A stretch of DNA of 37,410 bases from Thermoplasmata archaeon. GTDB taxonomy: Archaea > Thermoplasmatota > Thermoplasmata > Methanomassiliicoccales > Methanomethylophilaceae. Both the position numbers and the translations under genes were made by a program. Under the pieces are notes generated by a model. That model did no database searches. It was not told where the DNA came from and saw only the letters and a list, made by a program, of their open reading frames with translations. The stretch's first letter is position 1; each line of letters begins with the position of its first letter. The stretch is taken from NCBI GenBank assembly GCA_015063165.1, contig SUSZ01000023.1, positions 1-37,410 of the forward strand. Direction: 5' to 3'. This document shows, one piece after another, positions 1,566 through 37,410 of this stretch.

Positions 1566-2939
1566 TTAGTCTTGGAGTCGATACCGCTTATAAGCCGAAC
1601 GCATAACCGCCTTGATCTCGCCCGGCTCGTCCTTTCATCAGGTACGCCCTTCCGTCCTTGGTGCGCGCCACCCGCTCGGCATACTTTCCGAGATGGCTCG
1701 CGGATACCGGGATCCTCCTGAACCCGATCTCCTACGGGAACACGGCGTCCTCCGGGCTGAGAGCGCCGAGCTCCCTCAAGGCATCCATGACGACCAGGCC
1801 CTCTAGATATGACGAATCGACATTGGGGCCATGGAGGACGGCCAGAGCCAGCATCCTCATGACCCTCCCGATGCCGTGCCGGTTTCCCGAAGCCGATTCC
1901 GTCGTACCGCCCAGCTCGGCGATGCGGCGTATCTCCCTCTCGTCGAAGGCGTTATGGATCGTGACGCAGAGCGACCCGTCATCCGACAGATAGGTAGCCG
2001 GCTCGTAGGGGCTGGAGCCTATCAGCTAGTCCGTCTTCCCGTCCATCAGGTGCAGCTTCCCGCCTATGTCCTCCAGGAAGAGCCCGTCCTCCACATGGAG
2101 GACCAGCGCATCGGAGGCCTTTCTGACATCGTCCTGCTGATCTGCCGGCATCGTCGCATCTCCTAAGAGAAGAAGACCGCATAGGATGAAAGGCTTGTCG
2201 CTCCGCCAGGATTCCGATGCCAGGAGATCCCGAGCATAATGGTTCCAGGACGTCCGGACGGAGGCCTAGTCGGCCGCGAGCACGCTGGCAAGAGCCGTCG
2301 ACGGTATCCTAAGAACTCCCTGAGTCCCTTCTTCCTCCTCAGATGCTCCACGGTGAATCCGTAATGTCTCGCGCGGACGAGGGTAACGAGATTCTCCAGA
2401 AGCCCGTCATAAGGCAGGTCCAGCCATTCCTCCGGGACCTCCTCGCGCATGGTGCCGCCGTCGTTGTGGCCGCCTCCCCACCACCAGGCCTCGTCCAGCT
2501 CGGCCTCGAACGTCCCGTCGTCCTTCTTGTTGATGCAGTACCAGGAAGCCCATTCCTTCATGCCATCGATGGGGCCGGAGCCCTCGCAGTGCGGGGCCGA
2601 ATGGTCCTCCTCGTCGTCGTCGGCTGTCCCGCGCTTATATATACGAAAGCTGTCCACGTCCTCGGGGACGCGCGTCACGCTCATGTCGCCTCTTCTGTAC
2701 ACAGTCTTCCTCGTTCCTTGGACGCGATTCTCTTCGTTCATTAGGTCTCTGAAGAAGGGGATTCTGCTGCCGGACCTCGAATCCTTCCTTAAGGCCTCCG
2801 GAAGGTCCTCCAGACCTTTGTACGATGATACGCTGCCGTGGTATACGCCGCTGCCATCCTCCTAGATGCAGTAGCGCCCGATCTCCCGGCCCTTGAAGCA
2901 GACCTTATACCTCACCACGACGTTCATTGCCTGGCCCAT
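1566..2939 (-). pseudogene. unknown protein, ORF interrupted by four TAG codons and two indels
   Basis: A continuous coding-like reading of about 455 codons starts at ATG 2939 (MGQAMNVVVRYKV; an alternative Met lies at 2927) and ends at TAA 1566-1568. It contains four in-frame TAG codons at 2862-2864, 2266-2268, 2026-2028 and 1732-1734, and no in-frame TAA or TGA. A one-base deletion near 2315 (REF to LRIPSTALASVL) and a one-base insertion near 1631 (LMK to DEPGEIKAV) are needed to keep the frame. The middle has a Trp-rich acidic stretch (ELDEAWWWGGGHNDG); the end is basic (SAYKRYRLQD). I recognise no family. TATA-like boxes lie upstream near 2975 and 3015. It may be a decayed gene whose stops happen to be amber, or a gene whose amber codons are tolerated by pyrrolysine insertion. 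Confidence 0.6.
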
Positions 2940-3188: not shown

Positions 3189-5729
3189 TTAGACGGTCTT
3201 TATCCCGCTGTAGTAGCCATGGAATATGTCTGTTATCACAGGCATCTTATCCGTCACTCCTGTTACGTCAAGGCCGCCCGCGCGCACCTCGTATGGCCCG
3301 TCGCCGGCGCCTTCTATGACGGCCTCCGTCATGCCGCCTTCGAGCTTGACCGTCGACCAGTCGCCGACGCCCTGCTGGCGGTATTCGACGTCGTAGTAGG
3401 AGATCCCTGTATTCCACAGGTCTTCGACCGAGACCCTGATCGTGCCTCCCTCCCTTGTGGCAGAGGTTATCTCCGCCTTGCAGGAGGTTATGGCGAAATG
3501 GGAGATTATCGGCGAGGGGTCGTCGGGGTTCACAGTCGCCTATCCCTGTGATCTCCGCTTTGGCGATTCCGCATCTGACGTTGTCGCTGAAGCTCACAGC
3601 GTAGTGCAGGCCCTCCTGGAGCACCGCCAACTCCTTGGTCAGCACGTAGAAGTCGATCTCCCGCTCCTCTCCGGTATATTCGACCGACTTGACCAACGGC
3701 GTCACCAGAAAAGGATAGGCGCCGAAAACGTTTATCTCGAAGACGGTCGTCCCGAAGTCTTCGACGCTGACATAGAGGAGCGCCCTGCCATTGCCGTTCG
3801 TATCTATTGCAATCTGGGAATTGTTGTCCAGAGGCTCGATTGACACCATGTCCTCGTAGCCTTCGACGATTCCCCACTTGACGGTCGGACTGCCGACATT
3901 CCATGACGAAGGGCCCGAGAAGGTGAGCCTCGCAGTGGTCTTGTCAAGCCCTTCGATGTTGTAGAGCGCCGAGTTGGCGACGGTCACATCGGTGGTCACA
4001 TCGCCCGCCAACCTTTTGCTGTAGGTCTTGATGGGGAAGTTGTCGAATAATACAGCGCCATCGGGATAGCCTGTTACGCCCTCGTAGACCTTGTCGACGT
4101 CCTTGTAGTCCTTCCAGCAGCCGTCGATATAGAGGAAGCTCTGCCCTTCGTCCAGCACGACCTCGCTGGCCCTCAGCCCGGGTAGGTTGATCGCTATGGG
4201 GGAGTTGTAATAGGAGGCCCCGTTCTCGTGCGTCAGCGTCAGAATGACGGAATAGACCTGGCCTTTCTGAAGAACGATGTATTTCTCGTCCAGGTGTATC
4301 TTGTGCAATCCGGCGGACTCGAAGGTGGCCTCGCCTTCTACTATCTTGAGCCCGTCTTCGGGATCCTTGAACTTGTCCGGCAGCAGGTATATCTGGTACT
4401 TGGCTATGGTGTTCCCATCGGCGATCTGGCAGGATATGGCGTTCACAGCCTGCGAGTGTCTCGCCTTGAAAATGTTGGCCATCGATGCAGGCGTCGAGGT
4501 GTGCGTGATCTGGAGAATGCTGGCCGGCATGTAGTCGTGCTGGTTGATCTCGTCCGGCGAGACCGCCTCCTCGAAGACCATGGCTTCGGGTAACATCATA
4601 GAACGGTCGTAGTAAGAGAACCAGAAGTATCCCGAGTGAACCATGACCGGGTCGCCGTTACCGTCGAAGACCGGCTTGCCTTTGTCGTCCGTCTTCTGCA
4701 CCAGGATCCCCCAGTTTCCTTCTCCCTTGTTCGGGAAGTCCCTTTCCTCAGAGCCCCAGCTGTTCTTGACCAGCCATGCGCCGTCGGCTTCCGGTTGGTA
4801 CCCGGCGATGAAGTTCTCCTTCGAATAGCTGTCGTCCCAGCCGATTATCGTGACGGCATGGTTGGCCTCCGCGTTGTCCCAGGTGTAGTGCGCCCAGGTC
4901 CTGGTGCTGAGGTATTGGCCGTCCTCCTGCAGTCTCTGGTCAGGCCTGGAAGTGTCCGCATGGAAGCCAATCTCTACCCCGCGCTTCTGAAGGAGCTGCT
5001 TCTTGATCAGCTCGGTCGACTCCGAGTTGTAGGTGTAGTGCCCTTCGACTTAAGAGGCGGGGCTGGAGATCATTATGGACTCCTCCAGGATGTAGTCCTG
5101 GTGGAAGCGCAGGTCTTCCGGCATGAGCCAGTCATCCTTGTTGCTATAGCAGAAGGGCTGGTATTTTCCATCGAAGTACCTCTGAGTCGCGATGCTGTCT
5201 GTGCCGCGGTATTCGAAGAAAGGGTCGGAGGATTCATTCGAGGGCCCTATCCCTTGGGCGAAGGTGGTGGTCGCCAAGAACGGGGTGCCGCCATTGTAGA
5301 TGTCCTGCATCGAGTCTCCCGCAGGGACCATCCCTCTCCCGCCTCCGTGTTAGGCGTGTGGGAATAGTACGCCAGCTGCTTCTCGGAGAGGTCCAGCCAC
5401 TTGTAGGCTTCAAGGTCGTAGTCGTAGACCGAGCCGAGAAGGCTTATCTCCGCGGCGGCGATCGCTGCGAAACCCCAGCAGTCCCCATAGGGGTTCTGCA
5501 GCTTGACTGGAGTGACGTATCATCTGTCGCCGATGCCGTCGCCGTTGGTGTCGACGCCCCTCAGGTCAAACTTGGAGGGGATAGGGCGCGAAGCCCAGTC
5601 GTCGCTCCAGTCGTCCTTGCTGTAGTCGTCTTCGCTGTGATCGGTTTTCTTTTCCTTGTCGGCGAAAACGATGATCGCGACAGCGGCTATCACTATTGCC
5701 ACCACCGCTATCGCGAGAATCTTTTTCAT
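3189..5729 (-). pseudogene. secreted papain-like (C1) cysteine protease with lectin-like and Ig-like domains, broken
   Basis: Reading from ATG 5729 gives a membrane anchor or signal segment (MKKILAIAVVAIVIAAVAII), an acidic linker, then a C1A peptidase: nucleophile region GDCWGFAAIAA, catalytic His in NHAVTIIGWDD and Asn in LVKNSWG. It is followed by a lectin-like region (HSGYFWFSYYDRSMM) typical of large archaeal and bacterial surface proteases, and Ig-like repeats. Four lesions break it: TGA at 5520-5522, a frameshift near 5331-5345, TAA at 5050-5052 and a frameshift near 3535. The catalytic residues and most of the text survive, so inactivation looks recent, or some lesions are sequence errors. 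Intact, it would be about 840 residues and act outside the cell. A TATA-like TTTTATTT lies about 25 bases before the start, so it probably had its own promoter. Confidence 0.85.
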
Positions 5730-6039
5730 GACATAAGGATGATTGTTATCAAATAAAATGATAACTTGCCGATTGCATGGAAAAGCTCGTACGTCCTCGC
5801 CCACATCCACGGCACCACCGACATCCTGTCGTTTTGAAAATGGCTGGAATCCCCGCCGATGGGGCAGGACCCCTTGTTTCCGCAGCAGAGGCACCCGTCG
5901 TAAGTCCTGACGTCCATCCCGCAGACGCCCAGGACCTCTCACCCATGCCAATTCTCCTCCGCGACTTTCACGAAGTTCTTCACCGGCAACGCGGTGGAGC
6001 CGTAGACGTCAGGGCTTCCATCAAGACGACGACCCTCAT
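5726..6039 (-). pseudogene. N-terminal fragment of an iron-sulfur flavoprotein / NADPH-dependent FMN reductase
   Basis: The start MRVVVLM at 6039 overlaps the stop of the upstream flavodoxin gene. The text then needs one frameshift (to SPDVYGSTALPVKNF) and crosses a TGA at about 5949 (NWHG-stop-EVLGVCGMDV). The Cys cluster YDGCLCCGNKGSCPI is the [4Fe-4S]-binding region of Isf-type flavoproteins or close relatives. The reading ends at 5726-5728 after about 100 codons, far short of a full flavoprotein of about 180-200, so the C-terminal part is missing. It was probably the last member of the TetR-tautomerase-flavodoxin operon. Its end overlaps the first codon of the protease pseudogene. Confidence 0.65.
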
Positions 6040-6653
6040 GCCGTCGCTCCCAGCCCAATCCCCAGCCCGGAGATCCAGCCCCTTATCTCGGATGCGGACG
6101 CCGAAGAGGAGAACCTCTTCCCGTCGAGCCAGGTCCCGCCGTCGGAATGTTCCTCGAGATGGTCGTCGCTGCTCCCGACCCCGCTGGAGCCGGAGGTGCA
6201 GAAGGGCACGACGGTCTTCCCTTCGAGCCCGTGGGTCTCGACGAACGTCCACATGATCTTGGGGGAATCGCCGAACCATATCGGATATCCGAGGAACACC
6301 GTGGAGTATCCGCTTAGATCGATACCGTTTGCGATTGCCGGACGTGCGGCCGGATCGTTCTGCTCCAGCCTGGCGCGGCTGCTGCTGTCGTTGTAGTTCC
6401 TGTCCGCGTCGGTGTACGGAACATCTGGAATGATCTTCACGAAGTCCCCGCCGGTGATCTCCGCGATCTCCTTGGCTATCCTCTCGGTGTTCCCGGTCTC
6501 GGAGAAGCATACCACGGCCACCTTCCCGGAGGAGACGGTGACGTCGTTCGACGGAACGTCCTTATCGCCGCCATTGTCCATGACTGCGACCGCCGCTATC
6601 GCCAAAACAACCGCGATGACCACGACCGCCGATACAGCTACGATCTTGTTCAT
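6036..6653 (-). CDS. membrane-anchored flavodoxin
   Basis: A 205-residue protein with an N-terminal hydrophobic segment (residues 5-25, VSAVVVIAVVLAIAAVAV), then a flavodoxin fold. The FMN phosphate loop is VCFSETGNTERIAKEIAE; STVFLGYPIWFGDSPKIMW and VVPFCTSGSSGVGSS match the other flavodoxin_4 loops. It is probably an electron carrier or quinone/FMN-type reductase tethered on the outer face of the membrane. Its ATG overlaps the TGA of the tautomerase gene (ATGA) and its own TGA overlaps the next start, so it is translationally coupled. It is likely co-regulated by the TetR repressor upstream. The substrate is not evident. An intact anchored flavodoxin beside a tautomerase suggests detoxification of quinone-like or aromatic compounds, which is inference. 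Confidence 0.85.
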   Translation of the reverse strand: MNKIVAVSAVVVIAVVLAIAAVAVMDNGGDKDVPSNDVTVSSGKVAVVCFSETGNTERIAKEIAEITGGDFVKIIPDVPYTDADRNYNDSSSRARLEQNDPAARPAIANGIDLSGYSTVFLGYPIWFGDSPKIMWTFVETHGLEGKTVVPFCTSGSSGVGSSDDHLEEHSDGGTWLDGKRFSSSASASEIRGWISGLGIGLGATA

Positions 6654-11543: not shown

Positions 11544-11680
11544 TCACTGGGATCGTCCCACTGTGATGTGGCACACGGCGGAATCGAATCCGAACGACGC
11601 CATGAGGTCGCACTCGCCTGCTCTGTGTGCTACTGCTGTGACCGTGCCAGTCCCGAGGTCAACGGTCACCGTCTTCCACC
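11544..11680 (-). pseudogene. C-terminal Big2-like (Ig-like) domain fragment
   Basis: The minus strand reads TVTAVAHRAGECDLMASFGF and AVCHITVGRSQ, clearly homologous to the C-termini of the proteins at 25306-26085 and 35493-36260 (TAVAHKTGKCDL, SAVCHVTVG). Only about 45 codons survive. Beyond 11664 the homology stops, and plus-strand coding of another fragment begins. Confidence 0.7.
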
Positions 11681-25305: not shown

Positions 25306-26085
25306 TCACAGGTATCGTCCCACGGTCACGTGGCACACGGCGGAATAGAACCCGAGCGACGCAGTGAGGTCGCATTCTCCAGTCTTGTGGGCGACGGCGG
25401 TGACCGTCCCCGCCACGGGTTCTGCCGACACCGTGCAGACCGACGGGTCGGAGGACTACCACTGGGCCATGGAGAGGAGGGAAAGGTACTCTGAGGGCAC
25501 ATCTATAATCTTCGAGCCTCCCGGCGCCAGTTCCAAGTAAAACTCCATCGCCGGGGATCCTCCGGATACGGACGGCACGTCCGCGGACGCGCCAGATTCC
25601 TTCACCGTTATCACACAGCTCGCAGACTCCTCACCGCACGTCGCGGTCAAGGTGCATGTCCCGGCCTTCAGCGCGGTCAGGGCGCACCGTAGGCCGTCTT
25701 CGTACGGGTGGACCGAGCACACCTTATCGTCATACACGGTCCATTCCGATGCGCGGTTGGCTGAAACAAACCCAGTGCTAGTGAGTTCCATGACCAAGTC
25801 TCCCTCAAGAATCTTCAACAGACCTCCATCAGGTTCGACCGGCTCGTCTGGTTCCACCGGCGATGGTTCCGGTCCATCGGGATTTACCAGCATCGAAGTC
25901 GATCTATCCTTCACCGTCATCGTGCAGCAGGCGGAGGAGTCGCCGACCTTCGACGTCACGATTATATCCCCTGTTCCTTGAAAACCGAATAACGCAATTA
26001 CCACAATATCATGATCACATCGATCGTTCCAGTCAAGTAAATGTTCAAAAATAACTGTTGTGCCAGAAGGACAGTTCAAGTTCAT
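25306..26085 (-). CDS. Ig-like (Big2-type) surface protein with one in-frame TAG (copy 1)
   Basis: From 26085 (MNLNCPSGTTVIFEHLLDWN) the frame is open except for a TAG at 25456-25458, then continues 49 codons to TGA at 25306-25308. The intact paralogue has a Ser codon (TCG) at this site (MAQWSSSDPSV versus MAQW-TAG-SSDPSV). Two Ig-like modules end in ASCVITVKE and AVCHVTVG; a Pro/Glu linker (PDGPEPSPVEPDEP) separates the first module. The N-terminus lacks the membrane anchor of copy 2, and other frames upstream (to about 26170) look coding, so the 5' part seems to be lost or shifted. Either a pseudogene, or readable in a pyrrolysine-inserting cell. Confidence 0.6.
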
Positions 26086-37283: not shown

Positions 37284-37410
37284 GTCGAATAAGGACAACC
37301 CCTCACGGGGTTGCCCTCTTCAAGGAACCGTACGTGATAGTTTCCCATCATACGGCTCGGACCCAGAATAACCGTGTTTCTCACGGCGGTCATAGATAGT
37401 ACCTCTTATC
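37284..37410 (-). mobile_element. group II intron, 3' end (domains V and VI; continues beyond the window)
   Basis: The minus strand carries a 34-base domain V at 37325-37358: 5' strand GAGCCGTATGATGG, tetraloop GAAA, 3' strand CTATCACGTACGGTTC. It has the catalytic AGC triad near the 5' end, the GAAA loop and the two-base bulge region. Directly after it comes a domain VI-like hairpin GGGCAACCCC-GTGA-GGGGTTGTCC, then TTATTCGAC, the usual 3' intron end, at about 37284. Sequence 37359-37410 would be the end of domain IV. The rest of the ribozyme and any reverse transcriptase would lie past 37410. The short ORF reading MMGNYHVRFLEEG across this element is only the RNA sequence translated. Confidence 0.88.

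Follow-up and report, generated by a model that had tools for sequence, protein, structure and literature searches.

A TAG codon conserved across species in an orphan archaeal gene and its likely reading as pyrrolysine

To our knowledge, conservation of pyrrolysine, the rare 22nd amino acid, is almost entirely confined to the three methylamine methyltransferases, and a genome-wide 'Pyl code' has reportedly been described for some archaea in the literature of 2025. The reactive site of the residue in MttB and MtmB is its imine carbon, to which amines, sulfite, and other nucleophiles can add (PMC9842639). Scattered, unconserved ambers are already known in the Methanomassiliicoccales: in Ca. M. 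alvus, TAG accounts for 1.6% of stops and 16 putative pyrrolysine proteins have been listed (PMC4153887), and ISO4-H5 carries an in-frame amber in 46 genes (PMC5011839). Amber-containing transposases and a TetR regulator are known from Methanosarcina acetivorans (PMC3639795).

Here, we analyze a locus of a rumen methanogen of the Methanomethylophilaceae, positions 1566-2939 of a 37,410-nucleotide stretch of DNA (hereafter, the window), which holds an orphan gene, denoted gene B, with in-frame TAG codons. Similar to MtmB, MtbB, and MttB, gene B carries an in-frame TAG that is conserved across species in a pyrrolysine-decoding archaeon; unlike these proteins of 467-505 aa, its product is only about 187 aa long and matches them neither in sequence nor in fold. 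Gene B resembles the M. acetivorans transposases and TetR regulator in being a pyrrolysine candidate outside the methyltransferases, but matches no transposase or TetR model. The source genome shares with Ca. M. alvus and ISO4-H5 the scarcity of TAG stops and the presence of in-frame TAGs in ordinary genes; however, homologs of the Ca. M. alvus amber genes in the two genomes compared mostly lack the TAG, whereas all six members of the gene B family retain it. As in the archaea with a genome-wide 'Pyl code', TAG acts as a sense codon across the source genome, judging from a 336 kb sample. Conservation of an amber throughout a family of orphan genes seems not to have been described before.

Decoding of TAG in the source genome

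The initial annotation took the DNA to come from a pyrrolysine-decoding methanogen in which ambers are tolerated or even used, and the genome (2.28 Mb, 67 contigs) bears this out. It encodes a tRNA-Pyl with the anticodon CUA as well as PylS, PylB, PylC, and PylD, which lie in one cluster and each score above the curated NCBIfam cut-off, and TAG is found inside mtbB, mttB, and several ordinary genes. Ambers are apparently used as well as tolerated. Among 246 genes called in the 336 kb sample with a home-made, codon-usage-based gene caller that also picked up some antisense ORFs, 212 end in TGA, 24 in TAA, and 10 in TAG. In six of these 10, mtbB and two mttB genes among them, the sequence beyond the TAG still looks coding; the mtbB and mttB of this genome score far above the family cut-offs. 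The ordinary genes with internal TAG encode a MarR-like regulator, a nitroreductase-like protein, and a Sel1-like protein. Thus, in this sample, TAG seldom ends a gene and does occur within ordinary ones, as in the 'Pyl code'; a genome from another family of the order uses TAG as a regular stop codon (18 of 97 genes). The best reading is that TAG is in effect a sense codon in the source genome, where a few true TAG gene ends may remain, for example, at positions 2165-2163 of the window.

We searched four families with control TAGs for conservation, a small sample in which the Sel1-like gene had no relatives in the other 30 congeneric genomes searched. At the TAG of the nitroreductase-like gene, none of the 41 other matches carries TAG; about 25 residues of the query, all away from the TAG, were filled in (92% match to its own locus), so that these counts are usable and the identities approximate. 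In close relatives of the MarR-like gene, the TAG is replaced by Ser, and a single remote copy does contain a TAG, which the alignment did not place at that site. A protein of ~1,000 aa (L025 5453-8422, G000:C15) is present in 28 of 31 congeneric genomes; its TAG is common to the source genome (G000) and G069 alone. In the 26 other congeneric species matched, the frame is unbroken and its length similar or greater. Control TAGs are therefore mostly unconserved, and retention of a TAG in all known members of a family is not the rule here.

Further in-frame TAGs were observed. Two adjacent genes in locus L045 (3760-5424 and 5489-7153), which by eye resemble acetolactate synthase, differ in that the first has an in-frame TAG at codon 256 and the second does not, making them a natural pair for testing tolerated pyrrolysine. 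A congeneric genome without gene B (G053) contains in-frame TAGs at L072 1607 and L069 9874, in genes that by eye appear transporter-like and thymidine/AMP-phosphorylase-like.

Two neighboring genes at positions 1566-2939

The initial annotation described ~1.37 kb of the minus strand as a single protein interrupted by four TAGs and two one-base indels. All four TAGs are present (2864-2862, 2268-2266, 2028-2026, and 1734-1732). The relatives, however, resolve two neighboring genes, A and B, and the single gene with two indels is rejected. The features are as follows.

2163..2939, minus strand: gene A, frame from ATG 2939, with a core homologous to relatives to ~2305
2862..2864, minus strand: TAG at residue 26 of gene A, unconserved (Tyr, Cys, Arg, or Asp in relatives)
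2266..2268, minus strand: TAG outside any supported gene, in a frame (~2310-2152) without detected relatives
1588..2151, minus strand: gene B, 187 codons from ATG 2151 to TAA 1590-1588, with two in-frame TAGs
2026..2028, minus strand: conserved TAG at residue 42 of gene B, candidate pyrrolysine codon, TAG in 6/6 members
1732..1734, minus strand: second TAG of gene B, residue 140, in the window only (GAG or GAA, Glu, in five relatives)

Near 2315, several gene A relatives (L040, L042, and L037) keep their own frame ('..REFLGF/Y-RRRLL..') beyond the position of the supposed indel, so that no indel is needed there. Neither is one needed near 1631, because the gene B relatives differ in their last residues, the C-termini being variable, and the gene B frame continues to its own TAA. 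Hence, both indels, which had been the main argument for decay, are unnecessary. Three of the four TAGs fall within supported genes, one in gene A and two in gene B. For the frame that holds the fourth, the search for relatives returned the window alone, and gene B matches start at ~2151.

Gene A belongs to a genus-restricted family and has a paralog in the same genome (G000:C6:7392-8030), which encodes 213 aa without interruption and is ~55% identical; congeneric species hold further copies. The 3' end of gene A is uncertain: either the TAG at 2165-2163 or, if TAG is sense, the TGA at 2048-2046. The Sel1-like gene (L019, also on G000:C6) adjoins this paralog and contains in-frame TAGs at 6502 and 7123.

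It had further been argued that a dead gene should show a mixture of stops, so that four TAGs out of four would be telling. This argument carries little weight, since under the codon usage of the source genome 57-59% of single-base nonsense mutations yield TAG; the chance of an all-TAG set is ~0.11-0.12 for four of four and ~0.19-0.21 for three of three. The case beyond chance is carried by the comparative sequence evidence, not by the stop-codon count. The contrast drawn with the neighboring protease remnant does hold, with an in-frame TGA near 5522 and TAA near 5052. This remnant (window ~3268-5950, minus strand) derives from a papain-like protease gene that also encoded a lectin-like domain (PF18560); it is a real pseudogene and adjoins genes A and B.

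Elsewhere in the window, an in-frame TAG at 25455-25457 on the minus strand lies in an apparent repeated Ig-like (Big-type) stretch ('..SLLSMAQW-TAG-SSDPSVCTVSAEPVAGTVTAVAHKTGECDLTASLGFYSAVCHVTVG'), and tails resembling this stretch, without the TAG, occur near 11544 and 35493. A group II intron domain match (RF00029, 55.7 bits) is located at 37284-37360 on the minus strand, at the window edge.

Conservation of the gene B amber and its possible explanations

The gene B family, with proteins of ~174-190 aa, is single-copy and known from six species of one genus, that of the window and five others. All members are MAG sequences from that genus; the relatives are Methanomethylophilaceae or Methanomassiliicoccaceae MAGs, mostly from the rumen; for three, the rumen or omasum of roe deer or sheep is named as the source, and two are Tb.RUG isolates. 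Matches in the five congeneric genomes start near ATG 2151 and end before the variable C-terminus. The TAG at residue 42 sits in LHLM[DN]GxxD-TAG-xIxSxP, the most conserved block of the protein, and gene B has the marks of a pyrrolysine protein, an in-frame TAG with both flanks conserved across species. According to the initial annotation, a conserved TAG would mean recoding and scattered residues decay; the alignment divides the sites, with the TAG at 2026 on the side of recoding and those at 1732 and 2862 scattered. Searches of 102 genomes at the level of the family, 147 at that of the order, and 390 at that of the phylum found no gene B relatives lacking the TAG at residue 42, and neither did a scan of GTDB genomes; one 59-residue match at E 0.0036 in the former searches was taken as chance. 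IMG/VR, phage records, and plasmids yielded no match to gene B, and a mobile or viral origin was dismissed.

Across all 15 pairs of members, dN/dS is 0.09-0.27 before the conserved TAG and 0.22-0.44 after it, and gene B is under purifying selection on both sides. We consider it likely that TAG is a sense codon in the genus, read by tRNA-Pyl, that gene B is functional, and that its residue 42, encoded by the TAG at 2028-2026, is a conserved pyrrolysine. The tRNA-Pyl would then decode this codon so that the full 187-aa protein is made, and we infer that pyrrolysine, rather than another residue, would be inserted and that residue 42 would be functionally needed. The TAGs at 1734-1732 in gene B and 2864-2862 in gene A would be recent substitutions, tolerated because TAG is sense.

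That gene B is instead a pseudogene and its ambers dead stops is very unlikely. A decayed protease gene does lie nearby, the window copy has two TAGs, and the codon-usage scores of gene B are low, but the TAG is common to six species, purifying selection acts downstream of it in all 15 pairs, and the gene has no other stop before its end and needs no frameshift. The window copy itself could be starting to decay, given its second TAG and the adjoining protease remnant. We can practically dismiss the reading that the real gene lies on the plus strand, where an ORF of 111 aa (1831-2166) exists and the TAG would lie opposite a leucine codon, CTA. Some relatives do have a fairly open antisense frame; however, its stops fall at differing places among the members and mismatches are enriched at the third codon positions of the minus frame (0.46-0.50 vs 0.21-0.30), which refutes an antisense gene as the main explanation.

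A regulated stop, yielding a product of 41 residues under pyrrolysine shortage and the complete protein under ample supply, and so serving as a gauge of pyrrolysine or methylamine, would likewise conserve the codon itself. In four of the six members there is no start codon within 40 codons behind the TAG, which makes reinitiation there unlikely and agrees with such a switch. Nevertheless, we regard this as quite improbable: genes of general function elsewhere in the genome use TAG as sense, a point in favor of constitutive reading, and no shared RNA structure after the TAG was seen by eye in six single-sequence folds.

Possible, if doubtful, is that TAG is sense and gene B functional but the pyrrolysine at residue 42 is not specially needed, having arisen by an early substitution in a constrained stretch and never reverted. 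Tolerated ambers are common in the source genome and have been published for the order (PMC4153887, PMC5011839), the probability of an unchanged codon 42 at the average replacement rate of the protein itself is ~0.095, and 61 of the 168 aligned columns are invariant. Against this stand the retention of the TAG in all six members over a synonymous tree length of 3.3, in which a neutral TAG would change ~9 times (P ~1e-4), its location in the most conserved block, and the loss of most control TAGs between close relatives. Codon 42 is thus constrained, but the degree of constraint may be merely ordinary and, given the P of ~0.095, need not be special. Taken together, the initial observation is real, if in another form: several species share a TAG at one position of an orphan gene, in a genome that reads TAG as sense, for which the sequences make pyrrolysine the likeliest residue.

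Predicted structure and significance of the gene B protein

The AlphaFold2 model of gene B, obtained with the six sequences (pLDDT 83.8, pTM 0.77), begins with six strands (residues 15-66), continues with a helix and further helices, and closes with a terminal hairpin (159-173). Residue 42, modeled as Lys, lies in the predicted strand 41-47; pyrrolysine would accordingly sit on a strand of the all-beta domain predicted at the N-terminus, ahead of a helical part that includes a beta hairpin. No fold match to the model at E <= 0.001 was found in the PDB or a viral library. Weak partial matches above this threshold include the winged-helix proteins TubR, LOTUS, Nur, SaeR, and RTP, which hint at a possible winged-helix-like C-terminal part. 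Searches of Pfam, NCBIfam, and PDB sequences gave no significant match, and PHROGs none for the window sequence. PP2C was rejected, as it fell below the cut-off and was absent from the fold matches, and so was a methylamine methyltransferase: TIGR02368, TIGR02369, and the MtmB family were unmatched in all six members (NCBIfam, Pfam). Gene B is best read as a new protein family, unrelated to the methyltransferases in sequence and predicted fold.

By analogy with the methyltransferases, a conserved pyrrolysine in a small beta domain could bind an amine by imine chemistry. A methylamine or ammonium sensor coupled to a putative winged-helix-like C-terminal part is one conceivable form of such binding, which we regard as unlikely; if true, it would be a second natural role of pyrrolysine besides methyl transfer.

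To conclude, ambers in these methanogens should not be taken for decay, and automatic annotation will fragment gene B or label it a pseudogene. The comparison of the six members suggests that pyrrolysine is conserved in a protein other than the methylamine enzymes, and the gene B family offers a concrete test case for whether evolution has used pyrrolysine beyond the methylamine methyltransferases.
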